A stretch of 64,000 bases of DNA from the NCBI RefSeq assembly GCF_947623445.1, contig NC_135244.1, positions 16,120,860 to 16,184,859 on the forward strand, written 5' to 3'. The notes under the pieces are model-generated. The model searched no databases. It was not told where the DNA came from and saw only the letters and a program-made list of their open reading frames with translations. The position numbers were made by a program, and so were the translations under genes. Source of the DNA: Clavelina lepadiformis. Its lineage: Eukaryota; Chordata; Ascidiacea; Aplousobranchia; Clavelinidae. Of this stretch, positions 568 to 62,406 are shown one piece after another; the first letter of the stretch is position 1; the number at the start of each line of letters is the position of its first letter.

Positions 568-3532
568 GTGGTTGCTCATGAAATTGCACACAGTTGGACC
601 GGCAACCTTGTTACTAATCACACTTGGGAAGATTTTTGGTAGGTTTTTTTATATTTATTTTGTCCAACACAAATCAGCGTATCGTATTTTGCAATTACTA
701 GCAAGTTCTGTTGCAGGTTAAATGAGGGCCACACAGTATTTTTGGAAAGAAAAATTATCTGTGAACTCTTTGATGATAAGTTCAGGCAATTTCAAGCCTT
801 CAGTACGTGAACCTTTTTTGGATTATATGCATCATAGTATATTCTGTGTATTGTTCATGATTTTTCTGATGTTGTTGCAGATGGTTTAAAGAGACTGAAA
901 TATGCAGTAAGTTTTGTTTTGCATTGGCTATACTATTTGTTTATTTTTGTAGATGGCCTTAAGGACCTGCATCAGTATGTGAGTAATGGTTTCTGGAAAT
1001 ACGCATAATTTTTTCCATATCGTTTCTTCAGAGATGACATGGGCAATGGGCATACCAGATTCCATGGCCCTTGAAAATTTTTCTTTATTCCACTTCATTT
1101 GTGTAAAAAGGGACTTGTTTTGCCTTTTATTTACAATGCCATCAAAATCCCTTTGTAGCAATATATGCAAACTCATGACATCTTTTTGATATAATTGAAA
1201 AATGATCCCATCGAAGCAAAGGGTTTTGGCTCATGGCAAGAGTTGCCAACCAAAATTTTCCATGCTTTGCAAATACAAAAATTGGATTGTTAAAGTTAGA
1301 AAGTTAAAGAATGCTTCCCTACTTCATGAAATAATGATCTGTCTGAGTCATGACAAAAGTTGCATATCCTTCTCAGATAGTATGAGGTACAATGCAAGAA
1401 AGTAGCGTCTGATCATAACACGTGCAGGGTAAAACTGATTACAAATATTTAAAAAAATATTGAACGGTCATGCAGTTAAAAGGGAGTGTCCAACAGGACC
1501 ATAGCAATCAACTAATTCCTGGGGCACTGGGAAATAATTTACCAAAAAATATAAAAGTTGCAAAAAATGACCTCACAAAAAGGTAATCGGAATGCGAACG
1601 GCTGTAAAGTTAGAAAAGCATGCGTTCACAAAGTGATTGCCCATTGCAGCTCTAGAGTCATCAAGCATCACCATAATTAATGCAATAACGGCTTTCAATA
1701 CAGTTGATGTGTGGGGTGTATGTTACGTCTATACATAAATAGAAATGAAAATGAATTTGTATAATACATATCACATGTCATATCTATTTGATATTGCAAA
1801 TAGGCATGCCATAATAATGACGTAATATATTCTCGTAAACCTAAACTTAAAGAGCAATGAGGTTATTTTGAAGTATATTTTGTAAATGTGCTAGAACAAA
1901 GATAGATAATAATATATCACTCTCCATTTTAATCTGAAGATAGAAACATTTGGAAAAGACAGTCCATTCACGCATCTTGTTGTGAACTTGGATGGAGTTG
2001 ACCCAGATGATGCATTCTCCCCAATACCTTACGAGAAAGGTCATACCCTTCTGTTTCATCTGGAAACACTGCTTGGAGGACCAAGTAAGAAATTGAATAG
2101 TGATCAACTGATCATCATCAAGTCCATTAGTTGCAGAGTAGTTTTTGTTAGTGCAGGAATTTCTATTAAATTCAAAGATTTGTTTTTTATAAATGTTTAT
2201 GCTGATCTTGCATTTAACTGTTCATATTTTTTTTGTTCATATTGTATGCCATAAAAACTTTTTTGAGCGCTAAAAGATTTTTTGTATTCTTTTGTTTATT
2301 TAAGGTGAGTTTGAGCCATTTTTAAGAAGCTACATTGATAAATATAAGTTTGAATCGGTCTCCACCAGCCAATGGAAGGATCACTTGTATGAATTTTTTT
2401 CAAGCAAGGTGTCTGACTGAAGTAACAGTTGTTCAGTGATGTTCACTGCAATTTTTATTACAGGTTAAATTTTACCTTACTTACGTTTACAATTAACTTA
2501 CTTGGTATATACCATTAAAATCAGAAAGCTGTACTGGATAGTCTCGATTGGAATGCTTGGTTTCATACACCTGGAATGCCACCTGTGATACCAGAATATG
2601 ATCAGACTTTGTCAACGGAATGCACTGCGTTAGCTGAAAAGTGGGCCAAGGTGAGTCCTTAGGTGTTGTGGGCGTTGTAATTACTGTAATACTATTGCCC
2701 TATTTACCATTAATGTTATTTTGTAGGGTTTTAGAAACTGTTTTATCTGCATTTAGCTTCTTGAATATTATGAGAAACTGTGTCAATCTTTTTTTGTTTG
2801 TTTATCTGACTGTGATGCATTACCCGTACTTGTTATTAGACAGCAACAAATGACCTGGGTGTCTTTAAAGCAAAGGACATTAAGCATTTCTCATCATGGC
2901 AAAAGATTGAATTTCTCGGCCAGCTTCTATTAAAAGTTAGTTTTTGTGCACTGATGCGAGTCAATATTGTAGGTGGTATCATAGCATTTTCTATTGAAAG
3001 CAGATGTCTACTTGCAAAATTTGTTTTTAAGTTTGTGGTGGTGATCAATCTGTTATGCTTTCAGGATCCCTTCACATCAAGTCATATATCTACCATGGAC
3101 TCATGTTACCGATTCTCAAAGATTAACAACAGTGAGATTAAGTTCAGATGGCTCAGACTGGGAATTCGAGCCAGGTATGAACCTTCAATCAGACCTGCCT
3201 TACAGATGGCAACAGACCAGGGAAGAATGAAATTCACGAGGCCTCTTTTCAGGTAGAAAAGTTTTTCTTGTAAAGAGTTGAATAACTTAAATTTCATGTT
3301 TGTGTGAAGTTTATTAAACATATACATTTATACAACAGTTTTTAATGCTATTACATATATAATTAAAAGTAGACTCTGCTGTAATATATTGTATATATCA
3401 AGCTTTGTTCACAACAGAGATTTGGGAGGGTGGGATAAAAGCAGAGATGTGGCCATAGATCATTTTAAGAAGAACAAAGCGAAGATGCACAATACCACTG
3501 CTCAACATATCGAAAAGGACTTAAAACTATGA
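568..3532 (+). CDS. LTA4H: Leukotriene A4 hydrolase / aminopeptidase (3' part; 5' exons lie left of the window)
   Basis: Bifunctional zinc enzyme of the M1 family, cytosolic, hydrolysing LTA4 to LTB4 and trimming N-terminal residues from peptides. Exons read: 568-638, 717-802, one of 881-906 or 953-978, 1940-2084, 2305-2408, 2525-2650, 2840-2935, 3065-3252, 3418-3532 (TGA). All junction phases agree. The first exon carries the zinc motif HEIAHSW and the second the third zinc ligand in [12 protein letters not shown]. The human Tyr383 context PYEKG and the Asp375 equivalent (DPDDAF) are present. The C-terminal helical domain ends with [12 protein letters not shown], holding the human Arg563/Lys565 equivalents. 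The residue matching human Tyr378 is Phe. The N-terminal beta domain and the GGMEN-type exopeptidase motif are outside the window. Family assignment is very secure; LTB4 production rather than peptidase activity alone is inferred from the conserved Asp and Arg. Confidence 0.95.
881..906 (+). other. LTA4H: LTA4H alternative micro-exon a (26 nt)
   Basis: This 26-nt exon is bounded by ttgttgcag and gtaagt. It enters in phase 1 (the A left by the 717-802 exon completes Asn) and leaves in phase 0. It encodes NGLKRLKYA, followed by IETFG from the 1940-2084 exon. It fills the same slot as the neighbouring exon 953-978 and matches human LTA4H residues about 344-352 without gaps. Alternative to 953-978. 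Confidence 0.75.
953..978 (+). other. LTA4H: LTA4H alternative micro-exon b (26 nt)
   Basis: This 26-nt exon is bounded by atttttgtag and gtgagt and has the same length, same phases and same first four bases (ATGG) as exon 881-906. It encodes NGLKDLHQY. The acidic-Leu pattern is closer to the vertebrate G-W-G/K-E-L-Q helix than exon a, so this is probably the ancestral form. Only 46 nt (907-952) separate it from exon a, short for an intron to be excised between them. Confidence 0.75.
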
Positions 3533-5586: not shown

Positions 5587-18947
<13,361 letters not shown>

Positions 18948-37652: not shown

Positions 37653-38381
37653 TTAAAGCAGGGTACAGGTTTTGACTTTAACACCCAAAGAAACATCGCC
37701 AACCTTATTGTTAACTTTGTGGCAAAGATCTAAAACCCCTTTTAGCAAAAGCATATTTCGTCTAGCCTCCTGTTGATCTGTCAAATTAAGGCTGTGCTGA
37801 ACGCGCATCTGAAAGCCATTTCCCAAGTCAATCGTGCTTTGTCTTCCCGGTAAGCCGTTTTGTTGCTCCTCACTAAGTCTTTCGATGCTGCTGCTGAAGT
37901 CAACTGGAGTTTTCATTCTCCTTCGATTGTGATACGGTGAGCCGTCCTTTCTGACATTGACATTCCAACTGCCTTCTTTATTGCGAAGTCTTCGCATTAC
38001 GTTTCGGACAACGTCTGTTTCTGGATTGTTGAAGTGGATTTGCACTGGTGCCATAGACTCAGGATTTTCCTGTAAATTTATGAACTGGTATATTGCCAAT
38101 AATTCGTCATACATTCGCTGTAAGTATCTTCGTCTTCTGTGCAATTGAATGTGTGGTGAAGATTGACGTTTTCTGAAAACAAAAATTAATTAAGTAAATT
38201 TATAAAACGAAAACCGATGATTGTGGAAGGTAGAACATGTTACAACTTTAACTTGACAATGATTATGGTGTTCAAACGTCGTATTATCTCACCTGATACT
38301 CCGAGCCTCGGTGGTAGACAAATACAAGCAAGTGAGTGCCAAGGTAAAAAGTAGAAGACTTATTTTTGTAAAAGTCGTCAT
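37653..38381 (-). CDS. Secreted prohormone, candidate PTH/PTHrP-like peptide precursor
   Basis: Two coding exons, 38381-38293 and 38172-37653, encode 202 aa. Residues 1-26 form a signal peptide (MTTFTKISLLLFTLALTCLY..., ending STTEA), then a short pro-segment RSIRKR and a candidate mature peptide starting QSSPHIQLHRRRRYLQ and continuing RMYDELLAIYQFIN. Aligned without gaps after the KR site it shares Ser3, His5, Leu8, His9, a basic 13 and Gln16 with PTHrP, and Ser3, His9, Leu15 and Met18 with PTH. Gene layout matches vertebrate PTH: one intron directly before ATG (acceptor ttgcag|ATG) and one splitting the pro-segment. The rest contains several basic sites (MRRLR, NRRRMK) and only two Cys near the C-terminus. 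An internal RRRR could be cleaved, so other peptides are possible. Secretion is well supported; the PTH link is a hypothesis. Confidence 0.75.
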
Positions 38382-38556
38382 CTGCAAAGAAATTGTTTCA
38401 TTACTTTAGTTGAAAAAGAGTTCTGCCGGCACAAACTAATTTATGTTTTTAATTAAAATCAACGAAATGTATAAGAGCCTATTTATGACATTCAATTTCA
38501 ATGGAAAAATGTTATAGTCTTCTTAATTTAAAATCTAAATTTTTTAGAATTCTTAC

Positions 38557-38690
38557 CTTAACCTTGTGAATCTGCTTCCTCTCAAAATTATGTTTAAAAT
38601 TGCCTATGGGTTATATGAGCTTAGAAATCGAAGCACTGGATGTCCTTCTTCGGTTGATGTTGATGATCCAAACACCGACGATGACTGAGT
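38557..38690 (-). other. Probable 5' non-coding exon of the PTH-like gene
   Basis: On the minus strand a donor TTAAG|gtaaga ends at 38557, pairing with the acceptor at 38382-38383 just before ATG. The upper limit is set about 25-30 nt below the TATA box and is approximate. Confidence 0.45.
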
Positions 38691-38710
38691 GAAGACAAAT
38701 GAAGTTCTCA

Positions 38711-38717
38711 ATTTATA
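38711..38717 (-). promoter_or_regulatory. TATA box of the PTH-like gene
   Basis: TATAAAT on the minus strand, in CTCCCTATAAATTGAG, placed suitably upstream of the inferred 5' exon. Confidence 0.55.
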
Positions 38718-38793: not shown

Positions 38794-38829
38794 TGACGTT
38801 ATTGGCTGGCCGAGTCGTGAATGACGTAA
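38794..38829 (-). promoter_or_regulatory. CCAAT box and CRE-like sites upstream of the PTH-like gene
   Basis: On the minus strand: TTACGTCA at 38829-38822, CCAAT at 38805-38801, and AACGTCA at 38800-38794, all within 120 bp of the TATA box. TGACGT half-sites suggest cAMP/CREB-type control; this is inference from motif only. Confidence 0.4.
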
Positions 38830-43751: not shown

Positions 43752-46700
43752 TCAGCTACTTAGAACGTGTGGATGTTTTTTCCAAAATTCGTCTCCGATA
43801 ATATCGGTATTTAGTGCTGTTATTGGCTTGCAGAGTTTTCTTTTTTTCGAGTCGTTGAGATCTGCATCCATTGCTTCACTGATTGGCTCTTCGTCGTCAT
43901 TTCCAGATGAATTGACATCGGCCTAAAATAATTAATTAGCTATGTTACGTCAAAACGAACTGAAATTTTCGGCCGATGCATAGTGCACATTGCATCACAT
44001 GAAGCTACTACCTAATACTACATACGAAAATGTCGACAGGCGTTATCACAAGATTTAAATACTGTATAATCATGTACAGTCATCTCCCGGTTAAGTAACG
44101 CACCCGTTTAAGTTCGCATCCCAGATAAGTAAGCAAAAATTCTTCACAAATTCTGGGTTCAACTTTTTCAACAATTTATTTATTTTAAACAGCAAGCACA
44201 TTAACTGGATGTCAGGAAAAGTTAAACGTCAACTTAACAATACTTCACTGCTTAAACATGTCGTGCAAAGTCATCTGATGCATATTTTGCATTCTTTTTT
44301 GCTTGGCTTCCAACGTCACCTGTCTCAGTTTTCGCTGAAAGCATTCAAAAGTGCTTTTGAGATTATCGTAAGCACCTCCTGCTTGATCTTGTAAGGCAGG
44401 ACACAGCAACTGATCCTCAACTTCAAGCACTTTGTTGTAAAGTTGTTCAAAGCCATGAAAAACGATGCTGTTTTCGACAGGTGCACAATCGTTGCTTGAG
44501 CCAGCCTCATCGTCAGTGTCATCATTTTCAGTCTGCATCGTTTCCAACACCTCATTCACGTCACCCAAAATCGCCTGTGAAGCCAAAAGCTTTGGGTCTT
44601 CCTTGTCCACTTCAGCTCCTTCACCATGAAGAAGAACTTTCTGCAATCCTCGACGTGCTCTGAATCGGCTAAGCCACTGCCACGACGCTTGAAAATCATC
44701 TTCTGATATCGATAATTGTTGAGCGATTTGTTTTGCTTTTGCAATGACCAGTGAGGGGGGAACGGGAAGACTTGTACGGCGCATGCTATCAATCTAAAGA
44801 TATCGAATATCTTCCAGCTCAGAAAACCGACCAACGGATGCTCGAAACGTTTTTGTCTTTGTCTCCTCACACATCACAGCAGAACGCTTTCGAATAACTT
44901 CCCGGTTTTTCAAAATCTTTCGGATAGCAGCTTCACTCACACCATACTCTCTTGCGAGACTTCTTTTACTCGGAGCGGACGGCACACACAACTTGGCGAT
45001 GACTTCCAATCTTTGGGATTCACTTAAACGCTTCCCTTTACCTGACATCATGCGAACGAGAAAACTGTACCCAACAAATTACTTGTGCTGTACTGTACAC
45101 TAGCAGAAAAGAATGGCATACAAAATCACACAACAGAAAACTTTTTACGAATGAATGAACATGGGCAACGCATCGTGAATGACGTAATGAATGCAAAACT
45201 TGTGTATTGGGTACACGCATTCACACACGCGTTGGCCACGCATGCAGGGTGCAAGGCTGTACGCATACCTTCACTAGGTGGCTGCATAACTGCTAAGTAC
45301 GCACCTACCACATAAGTTCGCACAAACTACTCAGGATCAAGTTGCGTACTTAACCGGGAGATAACTGCACAAGAGTTAATTTGAACGGAAAAAGTCCAAT
45401 GTGACATCACAATGTAAAGACAACAAGCTTGATGGTTGGCAATTAGTTGGCAGTGATGTTATTTCCAGCAAAAAAATGACCAGGACTGTACATGGACGGG
45501 CAATGCATTTGCGTCTGTACGGTAATTATGGATGACGTACAACGCTTGCACCAACAGACAAGACCGAACTCACTGAATAAAATATTATAGAAAAATTCTT
45601 TGTAAGCTATGCTTAATGACAATACTTTTTTGATGAAAAATCAACTTGTATTCGGACTTGCCCTCCACTTTTAGAAAATGTGGAAACCCTAAACCGAATT
45701 TATTCTTATACATTGTTCACGCAGCAACAGATGGTGGCCATGAAAAAAGCATAAAATTAATGAAAACAAATTTTTGGTATCTATACGTAAGATCCATATA
45801 CATACACCAATACATGCAAAAACGTGTGCGTTCAACTAAGTTAATTCTGCAAACCGTGCAATAACTTTACGTACGAAGAACCGATGTAACAAAATGCGAA
45901 CAAGACGTCGGTTCATACGTGAGCTGTTGGACTAATATACAACAACGCATAAGGAACAAATGTAACCGTAAGAAATAGGAAGTAAAACTTTGACTGAATA
46001 GTCCCATTTTCCGACCCCTAATCTAGCGATATTATCCAACTTTGAGAGGTTGTTGGCACAATATCGAGTCACAAACATTAGCCGCCTACGCCGTGCACGA
46101 TAGTTTGTGGACAAAATGATTTATTTAGGGCAGGATGCAGCAAAAATCGTGACCAAAATTGCGATTTTCGTTTCCGTATAACACAAAACAATGGGCCATT
46201 GACGACCTGCGTTGAGCCCAAAAAAAGACAGCTAAACACTATATGGTCGACCTTACATAACCCGTTTGCTCTGATGTGGCTCCAAATCGGCTCGTGCATC
46301 GACCAAAATCAGATTAAAGCAATTATTGGTGAAGTTTGGGATTAATTCTCAACAAACCTTTTCTCGTATTAGGACTGTTCCTTTTCGATAAAGTTGCGGC
46401 AAGTTGTTGTAGTTGATGCCAAATTTGGAAAAAAGAATTTCGTTCTTATCCGAAGCAAGTGTGCCCTGGGCAAGAAAAAAGAACATTGTTTAACATTTCA
46501 AAAACTTTAAACTGGATGTTTTACAAAAGCACAGCGATTAAAGAAAACACACAAAAGAACTAATATGCGTTCTATTTGTATTTTTGTAACCAACCAGCCA
46601 TAACGAGAAGCACATAAATCTGATGCAATAATTCGCCGCAAGCCGATTTATTTCAACCTTATATATCCTTCCAAAAAAAAATTCTTTTGAATGTGCACAC

Positions 46701-57214: not shown

Positions 57215-58663
57215 ATGCTGGACATGGATAGGCAAAATTACGAGACTTGTTGCAGTTGCAACTTACAAAATGGCAACATTTCTGTTGTGATAAAGGATGT
57301 TGTGAACCTCAATTGCGTTATTCTAAAATCGCTGATGAAGAAATGTCCGAATCATTTATATCGCAAATTTTCATCTTGTGAGAAAACAGGGGTAGTTTGG
57401 ATACAAAATGCCACAAACAGATTCAAAGACTTTTCCTATCGTCTTAATGACTGTTGGAAAAACTATAATGAAACCACTTCTGCCAAATTACCAACAGAGA
57501 GGAACGAGTGTCTTTGTTCGCATCTAACCTTCATGGAAGAAAAAGATGCCAAATATGAAATAGAACATTACAACTTCAATAATATTTGCACGATTCTGTT
57601 CTTGATGGGTTTGATTGCTATAATAGGAAATGTTATAGTTATTGTTTCAAAATGTAAAAGTTTATTTAACAGTGGCCGAACTATGTCTAAAGTTGAGAAG
57701 ATATATGCAAGCATGGTTTTAAGTTTGTCCATGGCAGATCTTTTAATGGGAGTTTATTGTTTTGCTTTAGGAATTGCGGGCATGTATAAAGTGTTTGACA
57801 GCAATGAAGACAAATGTGTTTGGAAATCAAGCTCCATTTGCACCGCTCTTGGTATAATTAATTTTATTTCCAGTCAGATATCGGTAACAACTCTTGTCAT
57901 AATCAGTTCAGTCCGAGTTGTTAGTGTCTGGAATCCTTTTAAAATGATAAAAATAAAAACGGTTTATGCCGCCATCATTAACTCTTGGATTATATGGATA
58001 TTTATATCACTTTTACCTGTTTTTCAAAACACAGGGAGCGGTTTAATAGGGTTTTACAAACACCAAATTGTATGTACCATGTCCTACATTGCTTTCAGAA
58101 ATAATGATTCCATGCCATTAACAGTATTTGTATTGGTTTATAACTTAACTGCATTTCTTTTAATATTTTTGTTTCAACTTGCCATTTATTACAAAACACT
58201 GCCCGATATTTCCTCATTCCCGTGTAATTGCTGTGGATCTCAACCTGCTGTGGCGATGCACCCCCGTAGACGAAATGAAGATGTAAAAATGCATCGTAGA
58301 TTGTTCTTCATCGTTGTATCAGACTTTCTATGTTGGGTTCCAGTCATAACAATATCTCTTTATGTATGGACAGAAAGCTATGTTAAATCAAAGTGTGAAT
58401 GGCATGAAGAGGTGCGCGGAATGATGGATTGGTTTTCTTATGTGTTAGTCATCTTTATCCCTATTAACAGTGCATTGAATCCAGTGCTGTATTCATCACG
58501 TTTGTTTGGCCTAATGTTTCGTAACTTATGCAAGTTACCATGCACTAAGCAAAAGCGTACAGTAAAGGTACCTGAGATTTACGCCGTTTCCAACCAGAAG
58601 GCCACTTGTTCAACAGCTGACGCATTAGATGCTAATTTTGATGAAGAGTCAACCACCTTTTAA
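57215..58663 (+). CDS. Rhodopsin-class GPCR, LGR/relaxin-receptor-like, with GPS-like motif (482 aa)
   Basis: Plasma-membrane receptor encoded by one exon. The extracellular region (residues 1-123) is Cys-rich, with Asn glycosylation sites and no leucine-rich repeats. Seven helices follow: TM1 124-146, TM2 from about 164 (SMADLLMG), TM3 after Cys209, TM4 about 250-269, TM5 about 301-325, TM6 363-386 (SDFLCWVP), TM7 about 406-427 with NSALNPVLY. The ECL2 Cys is at 287 (VCTM). The DRY motif is replaced by SVR, so signalling may be atypical. TM6 and TM7 wording is closest to LGR/RXFP receptors. Residues 80-105 resemble a GPCR proteolysis site (C80-W81...C99-L-C101-S-H103-L-T). Ligand unknown. 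First intact member of a tandem array. Confidence 0.85.
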   Translation: MLDMDRQNYETCCSCNLQNGNISVVIKDVVNLNCVILKSLMKKCPNHLYRKFSSCEKTGVVWIQNATNRFKDFSYRLNDCWKNYNETTSAKLPTERNECLCSHLTFMEEKDAKYEIEHYNFNNICTILFLMGLIAIIGNVIVIVSKCKSLFNSGRTMSKVEKIYASMVLSLSMADLLMGVYCFALGIAGMYKVFDSNEDKCVWKSSSICTALGIINFISSQISVTTLVIISSVRVVSVWNPFKMIKIKTVYAAIINSWIIWIFISLLPVFQNTGSGLIGFYKHQIVCTMSYIAFRNNDSMPLTVFVLVYNLTAFLLIFLFQLAIYYKTLPDISSFPCNCCGSQPAVAMHPRRRNEDVKMHRRLFFIVVSDFLCWVPVITISLYVWTESYVKSKCEWHEEVRGMMDWFSYVLVIFIPINSALNPVLYSSRLFGLMFRNLCKLPCTKQKRTVKVPEIYAVSNQKATCSTADALDANFDEESTTF

Positions 58664-58836: not shown

Positions 58837-61053
58837 TCCCTCCAAAATTTTGTACATTGCAAATTCTTTCGTAGTTTTACTTTTCAATCTTTTTGCCCTA
58901 CCTTGATATTTTGAAAATAATGATCATCTAACAGAAAATAGCGCAGCGAATATTGTAGGATTGTAGACAAGTCTTGATAATACGGTCAATGTAAAAAAAA
59001 GGCCTGTGAACTAACAAGGAGAGGGTAGGATCGACGCGTCATTGACGTCAAAGAAATTCGCATTAGACCATGATGAAATTAACTAACTTAACTTCAGCAT
59101 ATATTGAATGGATTAGAAATGTTTGTAATTCAAGTGTGGTAAGCTTTATCTCTGTAGAATTAATGTTTTTGGTCAAACGCAAACGCGTGCAAAAACTATT
59201 GTAAAAGCCCGAATGAAACTTATTTTACAGAACAAAACGGAAGTACGTGCAAACAATCATGCCATAGTGGCGCAATAAAGTTAAGCACAGTTGCATTGTT
59301 ATAGAGTATAGACTATTCTTATACAAACAGGTAGGCTATAGCAGTTAATGTATAAAGAAGATTGATTTGTAATCTACTTTGCCAAAAGTTTTGAGCTTAT
59401 ATTTACTTACTACTTGCGCACCATATGTTGCAAAGAGAATAAAGAGAACAAAGAGAATAGGTTTACGAAACGATGGAGCATGCAAGAGCTACAAGCACTT
59501 ATCTATAAGCCTAATAACTTCTAATATTTCCAATCCAAATTATAAAATTTCTTCATAAGTATACACCTCTGCTCAGATTCTTGTTTTTGTGGTTCATTAC
59601 TCCTGAGCTCATAGAATTGTCTGACCAGAGAGTTTACCGGGATTAGTTAATTTGTGCTGTGTAGTTTTTCAAAAATTATCTGTAATAGTGATTATTTTGC
59701 TGATAACTGTTTCACAGCAGCATGTACAATAATGATGAAAAGATCCTGTGGTTACAAATTCCGGTGGTGGAATGTGTAAATGTTTGAAACATTCCTGAAA
59801 ATGTTCTGCATGCATAGCCTATAACCACTAGGCCCTATGTTTTCAATTAGGCTTATATTAAATGTTTGTGGAAAATATTTGTACATACAACAGTATATCA
59901 AAATTATGTTCATGAAAATAATGTCAGCCATCTATTAAGTTATTTTTTATGTTGTAACTCTTTTTTATTCACTATCCTCTATTCAGTTGCTTCGATTTTG
60001 AACCTATTTTTTCGGAGTGATACAAATTTTAAAAACTAAAATCCTTGGAGATCCTTCCAATCATAAAACCCTTCAAAAATTTATTCACAAGGTTTAAAGT
60101 GGACTCTAATTGGAATTTAATTAAACTCTTCATGGTTTAATTAAATTAAACTGCTGCATAAAAGTGCAAATCTGCTTGTTATATTTAAATATGCGTTGTT
60201 AAAAATTTTGGTTGATAATAATCCATGGCTTACAACTTTGAAATGGTGTATACATTAGTATCGTAACGACGTGTACAACCGTCGTATGACCCATCGTGTG
60301 ATCTATTTGTGCAATTTTACGTGACTTGAGTTCTGCAGTGTTGGTTCGTTAACCACTCCGCTGATATGTAGTCAGTTTGCGTATGCTTATTATACAGTAC
60401 ATGGTTTGCAAGGATCAGTTAAGTTTTCTGTTAAGTAAAACCTCTACGGTACAGTATTATGATCACGTAATCTAGTTTCATTGTAGAATGTTAACGGCTT
60501 TGTAGTAGCATGTGGTAAAACAAGTTAGCGCCTACTAAAATACCATAAGAGAAGCTTACTACGGTTCTTGTTATTTTATTGATAACAACCTGCTCTAGAT
60601 GCCATTGCACATATTCTTATAGCTTCATGAATAATGGATTTTTGCATAATACAATGCGACAATTAAATACGAAAGTATATATCAGTTCTGCGGTTTGGAA
60701 GATTCAATTTAGAAACAGGAAAAATAAGTCAGCCATATCTAGGAATTTCAGGGGCTATATTTCATACAGAGGTTATAGCATATTGGAGGTCCAATATATT
60801 GGAAGTGACTTTGTTACAAACAAAAATTTATCTGATTAAGAAACGGAGGAAATGTGTAACTGCAGGATATTTATTCTGGGCTTTGATAAAGTGCTGAACA
60901 GGCTGTATCTAACATATATTTTATGTATGATGGATGTGGATGTTAACCCAACTTGTTGATTTTACGTAATACAGGTCACGAGTTAGCTATAGGCTTTAGT
61001 ACTGAGTATAAAATCTTACAGATTTATTTTTGCAGCTATACCTTTTAAATATC
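58837..61053. other. Spacer between the two intact GPCR genes
   Basis: No gene was recognised. A pyrimidine-rich tttatttttgcag ends at 61034, 19 nt before the next ATG, and may be a cis- or trans-splice acceptor for a 5' UTR. Confidence 0.4.
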
Positions 61054-62406
61054 ATGAAGAAAACCAAAGAACAAGCGTTTATAAGTTGTTGTGACTCTAA
61101 AAATGGTAGGTCTGCTGTTGTGTTGAATAAACCAATAGAAAATATTACTTGCGGTATCCTAAACTCGCTCAAAGACACATGTTCAAATCAGTCGGATGTG
61201 GATTTTTTACCTTTGGAAAGTTCATGGTTATTTAGGCCAGGAAATGTTACTTATAATTGCGACTCGACATGTACTCCGATATGTTGCCAACCAAACTCAA
61301 CAAGAATTGATGTGTTTAAGTATGACGGAAGAATCTGGAACAAAAGTCCTTTTTGTTTGGAGCTCCACGGCACGGAAGGAGATGAAGATGACCTAAACAA
61401 CAAAAAATATATTGGTATAATTATCTTTGTGGTGGGCCTAATTGCTTTCATAGGGAATGTTGTAGTACTTGTTTCGAAAAGCAAAGTTTTGAATCGCAGT
61501 CGTCGAACCATGTCTAAAGTTGAGAAGATATATGCAAGCATGGTTTTAAGTTTGTCGATGGCTGATCTTTTGATGGGAGTTTATTGTATTATTTTGGAAA
61601 CCGCGCGAATGAGTAAAGATTTCAAAAATTATTGCGACAAACTTGAATGGAAATTAAGTTCTATTTGTACTGCTCTTGGTGTAATCAATTTTATTTCCAG
61701 TCAAGTATCGGTAACTACTCTCGTCATAATCAGTTCAGTTCGAATCATCAGTTTTGCTGAACCTTTCAAAAGGATAAAATTGAAAGTGATTTTGTACACT
61801 CTAATTTTTACGTGGATTGTATGGGTAGTTATATCGTTCTTACCCGTGTTAACTGCTAACGAAGAAAAGAAAAATCCATTTTACGGTAGCCAAACGGTCT
61901 GTACAATGGCATATATTGTCGGCAAGAATGACGATCACATGCCTTTAACATTATTTGTACTATTTTATAACTTAATTGCGTTTCTTTTCATACTTCTACT
62001 CCAGCTTGGAATTTATTACAAAACATTGTCAGGACCTTCGTCTTTTCTATGTAATTGCTGTACTGCTCATCACCTTGCTGTACCAGCAGCACAAAGTCAT
62101 AGACAGAAAGAAGATGCCAACATGCACCGCCGATTGTTCTTTATTGTTTTGACGGATTTTCTCTGTTGGATTCCACTCACTGCAATATCTCTTTATATTT
62201 GGAGCCAAAGCTATGTCCAATTAGGCTATGAATGGCGTAAAAGGGCGAAGGAAATGAAGCATTGGTTTTCCGACCTCTTAATAATCTTTATTCCTATAAA
62301 CAGCGCATTGAATCCAGTGTTATATTCATCAAAATTTTTCTGTAAAAACTGTCATCATGTGTGCAAGATACCAACATGCAGACATCTGAAACCTTCTAAA
62401 AACTGA
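61054..62406 (+). CDS. Rhodopsin-class GPCR, tandem paralogue of 57215-58663 (450 aa)
   Basis: Single coding exon. I chose ATG 61054 (MKKTKEQAFISCC); the frame is open further upstream only from a TTG. The helical region is closely similar to the first gene: RRTMSKVEKIYASMVLSLSM at the ICL1/TM2 boundary, SSICTALGVINFISSQ in TM3, VCTMAYIV in ECL2, TDFLCWIPLTAISLY in TM6, INSALNPVLYSS in TM7. DRY is again replaced (SVR). The ectodomain (about 120 residues) keeps the early CC and NITCGILNSLKDTC pattern but diverges afterwards and lacks the Cys-x-Cys-x-His-Leu-Thr motif. The cytoplasmic tail is shorter. Conserved 7TM with a divergent ectodomain suggests different ligands. Confidence 0.85.
   Translation: MKKTKEQAFISCCDSKNGRSAVVLNKPIENITCGILNSLKDTCSNQSDVDFLPLESSWLFRPGNVTYNCDSTCTPICCQPNSTRIDVFKYDGRIWNKSPFCLELHGTEGDEDDLNNKKYIGIIIFVVGLIAFIGNVVVLVSKSKVLNRSRRTMSKVEKIYASMVLSLSMADLLMGVYCIILETARMSKDFKNYCDKLEWKLSSICTALGVINFISSQVSVTTLVIISSVRIISFAEPFKRIKLKVILYTLIFTWIVWVVISFLPVLTANEEKKNPFYGSQTVCTMAYIVGKNDDHMPLTLFVLFYNLIAFLFILLLQLGIYYKTLSGPSSFLCNCCTAHHLAVPAAQSHRQKEDANMHRRLFFIVLTDFLCWIPLTAISLYIWSQSYVQLGYEWRKRAKEMKHWFSDLLIIFIPINSALNPVLYSSKFFCKNCHHVCKIPTCRHLKPSKN

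Follow-up and report, generated by a model that had tools for sequence, protein, structure and literature searches.

A candidate PTH-like peptide precursor and a PTH-type receptor in the genome of the ascidian Clavelina lepadiformis

A gene on chromosome 5 of the ascidian Clavelina lepadiformis encodes a small precursor for which the best reading, and in our judgement a somewhat better than even one, is a parathyroid hormone (PTH)-like ligand of the PTH-type receptor of the same animal. We show the structure of the gene, the anatomy of the precursor and the presence of the receptor. The link to parathyroid hormone itself, judged from sequence, is likely and not proven, and the peptide is only faintly similar. 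Since the precursor matches no PTH family profile that was tried and lacks residues common to the human paralogues, we use the term PTH-like rather than PTH and do not claim membership of the vertebrate PTH/PTHrP/TIP39 family, although such membership is plausible. The stretch of DNA analysed, here called the window, comprises 64 kb (C5:16120860-16184859), and the genome that was searched comprises 209,060,895 bases in 95 contigs.

The candidate gene lies on the minus strand, and the gene drawn earlier in a sequence-only reading of the window was confirmed. Its parts, together with the elements upstream of it, are given below in window positions.

38794..38801 and 38822..38829, plus strand: two CRE-like sites, TGACGTTA and TGACGTAA respectively, upstream of the presumed promoter, seen in the sequence
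38710..38717, minus strand: TATA-like box TATAAATT, a consensus match only, lying 31 nt upstream of the A of a TCAGTC initiator that is presumed to be the start
38557..38686, minus strand: presumed non-coding first exon of 130 nt without ATG, placed by its donor GTAAGA and the TATA/initiator spacing, with a putative start
38382..38556, minus strand: intron 1, 175 nt, whose acceptor TTTCTTTGCAG directly adjoins the ATG
38293..38381, minus strand: coding exon with the signal peptide (residues 1-26, by inspection) and the start of the pro-segment
38173..38292, minus strand: intron 2, 120 nt, GTGAGA...TTTTCAG, phase 2, within the pro-segment RSI(R)KR
37653..38172, minus strand: last coding exon, with the remainder of the pro-segment (KR), the mature N-terminus, the C-terminal extension and TAA, read from the sequence
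38064..38165, minus strand: presumed hormone region, mature residues 1-34, QSSPHIQLHRRRRYLQRMYDELLAIYQFINLQEN, read from the sequence, with a predicted helix at about residues 4-31

The second of these introns, of the GT-AG type, joins the exons 38381-38293 and 38172-37653 of the minus strand into a frame of 202 codons, or 202 amino acids, which has no internal stop and ends with TAA at 37655-37653; the intron splits the codon of residue -3 (AG/A). The gene contains a stop-to-stop run of 178 codons, for which the chance expectation in 64 kb of the same base composition is about 0.018, and the window holds seven frames of at least 178 amino acids, several of them within clear genes. Codon usage does not set the coding frame apart from the other frames at the candidate gene, and the 353 nt 3' of its stop contain no A[AT]TAAA signal. 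The two CRE-like sites are located some 110-140 bases upstream of where the gene presumably starts.

The window also carries other elements. Two adjacent receptors of the rhodopsin type, each contained in a single open frame, occupy positions 57215-58663 and 61012-62406 of the plus strand. The only PDB match of the former at E up to 1e-8 is relaxin receptor 1 (8.3e-16), and Pfam finds no leucine-rich repeats in that frame. Two transposase remnants lie on the minus strand, one at 6922-7636 with a DDE_Tnp_1_7 domain, which we take to be piggyBac-type, and the other at 44245-44793 with a Tc5-type DNA-binding domain.

The precursor is ordered as a signal peptide (MTTFTKISLLLFTLALTCLYLSTTEA, called by inspection), a six-residue basic pro-segment, the hormone region and a C-terminal extension. 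The earlier description of a signal peptide, a very short pro-segment ending in KR and a mature N-terminus is borne out (MTT...TEA / RSIRKR / QSSPH). The counterpart of the pro-segment RSIRKR in human PTH is KSVKKR (PMC9974466). The mature peptide, QSSPHIQLHRRRRYLQRM, begins QSSPHIQLH, and its first residue is Q33 of the precursor; RSIRKR is followed by QSSPHIQLHRRRRYLQRMYDELLAIYQFINLQ and then by about 140 further residues. This C-terminal part carries basic clusters at precursor residues 90, 104, 113 and 167, and two cysteines near its end. An amidation site, that is, G followed by a basic pair, is absent from the precursor, in which a basic residue follows G only once, in GRQ at residue 139. 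Mature residues 10-13 are RRRR, which, from its sequence, may itself be a cleavage site.

Searched at E up to 10, the precursor matched no family in either Pfam or NCBIfam, and its first 69 residues alone gave one Pfam match, GLV1-2, far below the cut-off (E 0.2). Two matches were obtained in the PDB, and both were judged to be due to chance: k-cTRP5 (E 0.001), whose repeats match the signal peptide weakly five times, and a protein-glutaminase-domain protein that matches over a 56-residue stretch (E 0.0065). The genome searched with the whole precursor returned its own gene and one match on C4 (E 0.10), which was rejected as a paralogue because its DNA resembles an exon of a different gene, presumably a UBE2O-like one. 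The AlphaFold single-sequence model of the exon-3 product is of low confidence (mean pLDDT 41), too poor to be taken as anything other than a hint of a helix, and the helical-moment test of the candidate peptide was not distinctive (shuffle p 0.12 and 0.29).

Regarding the gene layout, vertebrate PTH genes are described in a passage of PMC4354418 as having three exons, of which the last two encode the precursor, and a figure legend (PMC9974466) assigns residues -6 to -3 plus one nucleotide of K-2 to exon 2 of human PTH. The candidate had been said to have this two-intron layout, which stands as far as one intron ends at the ATG and another interrupts the pro-segment before KR, and does not stand for the exact base and phase. 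Compared with that legend (PMC9974466), the pro-segment intron lies about 2 nt earlier than that of human PTH and in a different phase; thus, it occupies the same place in the gene, and is not at the same base or an identical intron. The three features that the sequence-only reading had counted as independent are all present, but each is weak and they are not strictly independent. In vertebrates, TEA-domain and BTB_3 genes are linked to the PTH paralogon. Synteny with the vertebrate PTH loci found no support from these two markers, both being on other chromosomes (the TEA-domain gene on C1, BTB_3 genes on C2 and C3, none on C5). Ascidian gene order is strongly rearranged.

Since KR fixes the register of the mature peptide in advance, its similarity to the PTH-family peptides can be tested without gaps. 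The matches that had been claimed to human PTHrP and/or PTH, at positions 3, 5, 8, 9, 13, 15, 16 and 18, are all identities in this gap-free comparison except for position 13, which is conservative only (R for K). As a null set we used every peptide that follows a dibasic pair when the window and other loci are translated in six frames, excluding the three loci that carry the candidate gene. Over 18 KR-anchored residues, the BLOSUM62 score against PTHrP is 20, a value reached by none of the 2,943 distinct peptides; the PTH score is reached by seven of them and the TIP39 score, with TIP39 taken two residues in, by 27. The sum over PTH, PTHrP and TIP39 at this length is reached by none of the 2,943 peptides and by three of 20,000 shuffles, and a single shuffle in 20,000 scores as high on all three together. 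Ranked among 17 class B1 ligands over the same 18 residues, PTHrP comes first, followed by PTH, CRH and TIP39 and then, after a gap, VIP. With the null set restricted to KR/RR sites, the PTHrP score is reached by 0 of 1,469 peptides at 18 residues and by 2 of 843 at 30 residues.

The resemblance fades after residue 18: at 24 residues 3 of 2,225 peptides reach the three-peptide sum, and at 28 residues 6 of 1,837 do so. CRH ranks first at 24 residues (1/2,225) with PTHrP behind it (3/2,225), and PTHrP is first again at 28 residues (2/1,837). In a shuffle panel of 216 peptide/register/length rows the best was PTHrP with p 0.0005, which becomes about 0.1 after Bonferroni correction. Without gaps, the p value over 34 residues is 0.006 for PTHrP and 0.13 for PTH. 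Gapped local alignment of residues 1-34 is significant for none of the three peptides (p 0.48 for PTH, 0.08 for PTHrP and 0.19 for TIP39); the same gapped test between PTH and TIP39 gives a p of only 0.08. A register shifted by one residue (SxxxIQL) was tried at four lengths and set aside as no better than shuffles (p 0.06-0.12 for PTH, 0.19-0.60 for PTHrP and 0.09-0.22 for both). At individual positions, R20 and L24 are columns invariant in human PTH, PTHrP and TIP39, and the candidate has D20 and A24; its residue 4 is a proline, where PTH-family peptides have an acidic residue.

The search with profiles of the PTH/PTHrP/TIP39 family, proposed earlier as a check, did not back the assignment, since the Pfam PTH profiles PF01279 and PF14980 match neither the precursor nor two N-terminal fragments of it at E up to 10. 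Against the genome, PF01279 gave no match, the candidate gene included, and neither did PF00123 or a PTHrP fragment; no control gave a signal in the two profile searches, and the blank from the fragment is equally uninformative. The reach of such searches can be seen from known members. TIP39, an accepted member of the family, misses PF01279 at E up to 10 but matches PF14980, and human PTH(1-34), searched by phmmer against the PDB, retrieves PTHrP chains no better than E 0.09-1, with engineered analogues appearing from 0.0056, and lists no TIP39 chain at E up to 10. Thus, absent profile matches are to be expected at such a distance.

The receptor provides the other side of the proposed pair. 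HRM domains are found at 11 places in the genome at E up to 0.05, ten of them over the cut-off, and the PTH-type receptor locus is at C5 20.745-20.751 Mb on the minus strand. Its TM3-TM4 exon scores 68.9 bits with PTH2R, 65.7 with PTH1R and 50.5 with the secretin receptor. The receptor exons joined by hand, with approximate junctions, score 457 bits with PTH1R, 452 with PTH2R and 327 with the secretin receptor, which is the next family; other families score below 327 bits among the best 60 of 79 matches. The receptor was assembled from one of 18 stretches, so that the number of PTH-type receptors in the genome is at least one. Judged by these scores, the genome holds a clear PTH-type class B1 receptor, about 125 bits over the next family, and the objection that the genome might have none, by which the sequence-only reading could have fallen, is removed. 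The receptor retains the segment ILRAAVIFVK, the arginine of which in human PTH1R presumably pairs with E4 of the ligand. The candidate is without E4 while the receptor keeps the arginine, which counts against the pairing. Two PTH-type receptors are reported for Ciona in passages of PMC3483286 and PMC2396169.

At the receptor locus, the exon that encodes the second half of the hormone-binding domain also appears to be present twice, as RICSPQGEWATTNNGTQTWTDYHDC and, next to it, RICTEDGTWQKLASDPNHTWSDYSRC.

About 3207..3350 of the reverse complement of C5:20744000-20752000, minus strand: apparent second exon copy, read from the sequence

The two copies are possibly mutually exclusive, which would give two receptor ectodomains. 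Other class B matches in the genome include a large class B (7tm_2) receptor array at C4:0.49-3.24 Mb, with dozens of similar exon matches and perhaps of the adhesion type, and a cluster at C1:12.20-12.25 Mb with four HRM-domain matches close together.

The main alternative is that the gene encodes a tunicate-specific secreted product, a neuropeptide or a small protein, that has no relation to PTH, in which case the resemblance would have arisen by chance in a basic, helix-forming N-terminus and the intron position would reflect a common habit; secreted-peptide genes are commonly interrupted near the end of the signal peptide. The lack of any family match for the precursor is in keeping with this explanation, as are a PTH similarity that loses significance once corrected for the number of comparisons, the missing key PTH residues, and a C-terminal part of about 140 residues with two late cysteines that resembles nothing found. 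It is harder to reconcile with PTH, PTHrP and TIP39 all scoring high in one register preset by KR, and a PTH-type receptor needs a ligand. We therefore regard an unrelated peptide as a doubtful explanation, yet one of real weight.

The same register brings CRH close to the candidate (P4, I6, L8 and L15 are common to both) as the nearest other family, which outranks PTHrP at 24 residues. CRH peptides are C-terminal in their precursor and amidated, and their coding region is in one exon. The candidate, unlike CRH, sits at the N-terminal side of its precursor, has GRQ as its only G-basic site and is without the amidation pair, and the precursor has no match to PF00473 (CRF family) at E up to 10. 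Elsewhere in the genome, at C2:21560539-21560640, there is a match to the CRF family that exceeds the curated cut-off (E 1.8e-5) and is itself a candidate tunicate CRH-type hormone; judged by this profile match, the CRF slot appears to be filled by that other locus, and a divergent CRH/urocortin-type peptide is an improbable identity for the candidate. As for processing, RRRR at 10-13 is by sequence a strong furin-type site, to which the rule for such cleavage sites fits, and a cut there would leave YLQRMYDELLAIYQFINLQ... as the active product, without the PTH-type activation domain. However, the PTH resemblance sits before RRRR, and the active form of PTHrP carries RRR too, at 19-21, so that we give this product very little credence. 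Taken as a PTH-family precursor, as first proposed, the candidate is favored by the receptor, by the ranks of PTHrP, PTH and TIP39 (first, second and fourth of 17) and by the layout, and disfavored by the profiles, the gapped alignment, the conserved residues and synteny, with CRH a close second.

In the reading that we prefer, a PTH-like ligand of the animal's own receptor, the candidate gene would give rise to a secreted prohormone from which the signal peptide is removed, and a furin-type convertase would cut after RSIRKR, yielding a peptide that starts QSSPHIQLH. The released peptide would form a single long helix, whose C-terminal half would, on the model of vertebrate PTH/PTHrP, dock in the extracellular domain of the PTH-type receptor, and the N-terminus would enter the transmembrane core, leading to Gs/cAMP signalling. 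Tentatively, and with less conviction than for the pairing itself, we suggest that the tunicate ligand may have kept the precursor and intron layout of PTH and yet have lost the acidic residue at position 4 together with R20 and L24, and that RRRR may be a switch that inactivates or converts the peptide. Class B1 receptors are conserved across animals and their peptide ligands drift beyond the reach of sequence search; thus, many class B1 receptors outside vertebrates are without a known ligand. If the pairing is true, it shows the extent to which a hormone can drift while the receptor and the gene architecture stay. The value of the finding lies in a testable ligand-receptor pair, as a ligand candidate and a receptor from one genome would allow PTH signalling to be put directly to the test in the boneless sister group of vertebrates.

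No literature on this Clavelina gene was found, as judged by titles and abstracts. Passages of two reviews citing Mirabeau and Joly 2013 (PMC4354418, PMC5640766) state that PTH-like genes are already known in tunicates/urochordates and amphioxus, so that, on their account, the candidate is not the first non-vertebrate member. Those peptides are like the candidate in the kind of animal and the claimed function, a likeness drawn from the description in the reviews and not from sequence; the passages state that the tunicate peptides exist, and no printed sequence was found in them. In the passage concerned, an earlier study (PMC3483286) reports that neither Ciona nor amphioxus yielded a TIP39 gene. 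An insect PTH-receptor ligand without sequence similarity to PTH has been published (PMC7224569). The candidate resembles this iPTH/PXXXamide, as excerpts of that paper describe it (PMC7224569), in being an invertebrate ligand, here predicted, for a PTH-type class B1 receptor and in having KR before the mature peptide. In the same excerpts (PMC7224569), iPTH is amidated (strict GXX), has a conserved SD near the N-terminus and shares less than 12% identity with human PTH, PTHrP and TIP39; the candidate, in contrast, is without the amidation-cleavage site of G plus two basic residues defined there.

Compared with vertebrate PTHrP, PTH and TIP39, the candidate lacks V/L2, E/D4, R20, W/F23 and L24, and differs in its N-terminal Gln and in RRRR at 10-13. 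It is like these hormones in its signal peptide, its basic pro-segment ending in KR and the one long helix that is expected, and in the pattern of S3, H5, L8, H9, L/I15, Q16 and M/L18. Finally, the presumed non-coding first exon and the pro-segment intron are shared with vertebrate PTH, and the C-terminal extension carrying basic clusters is shared with PTHrP.
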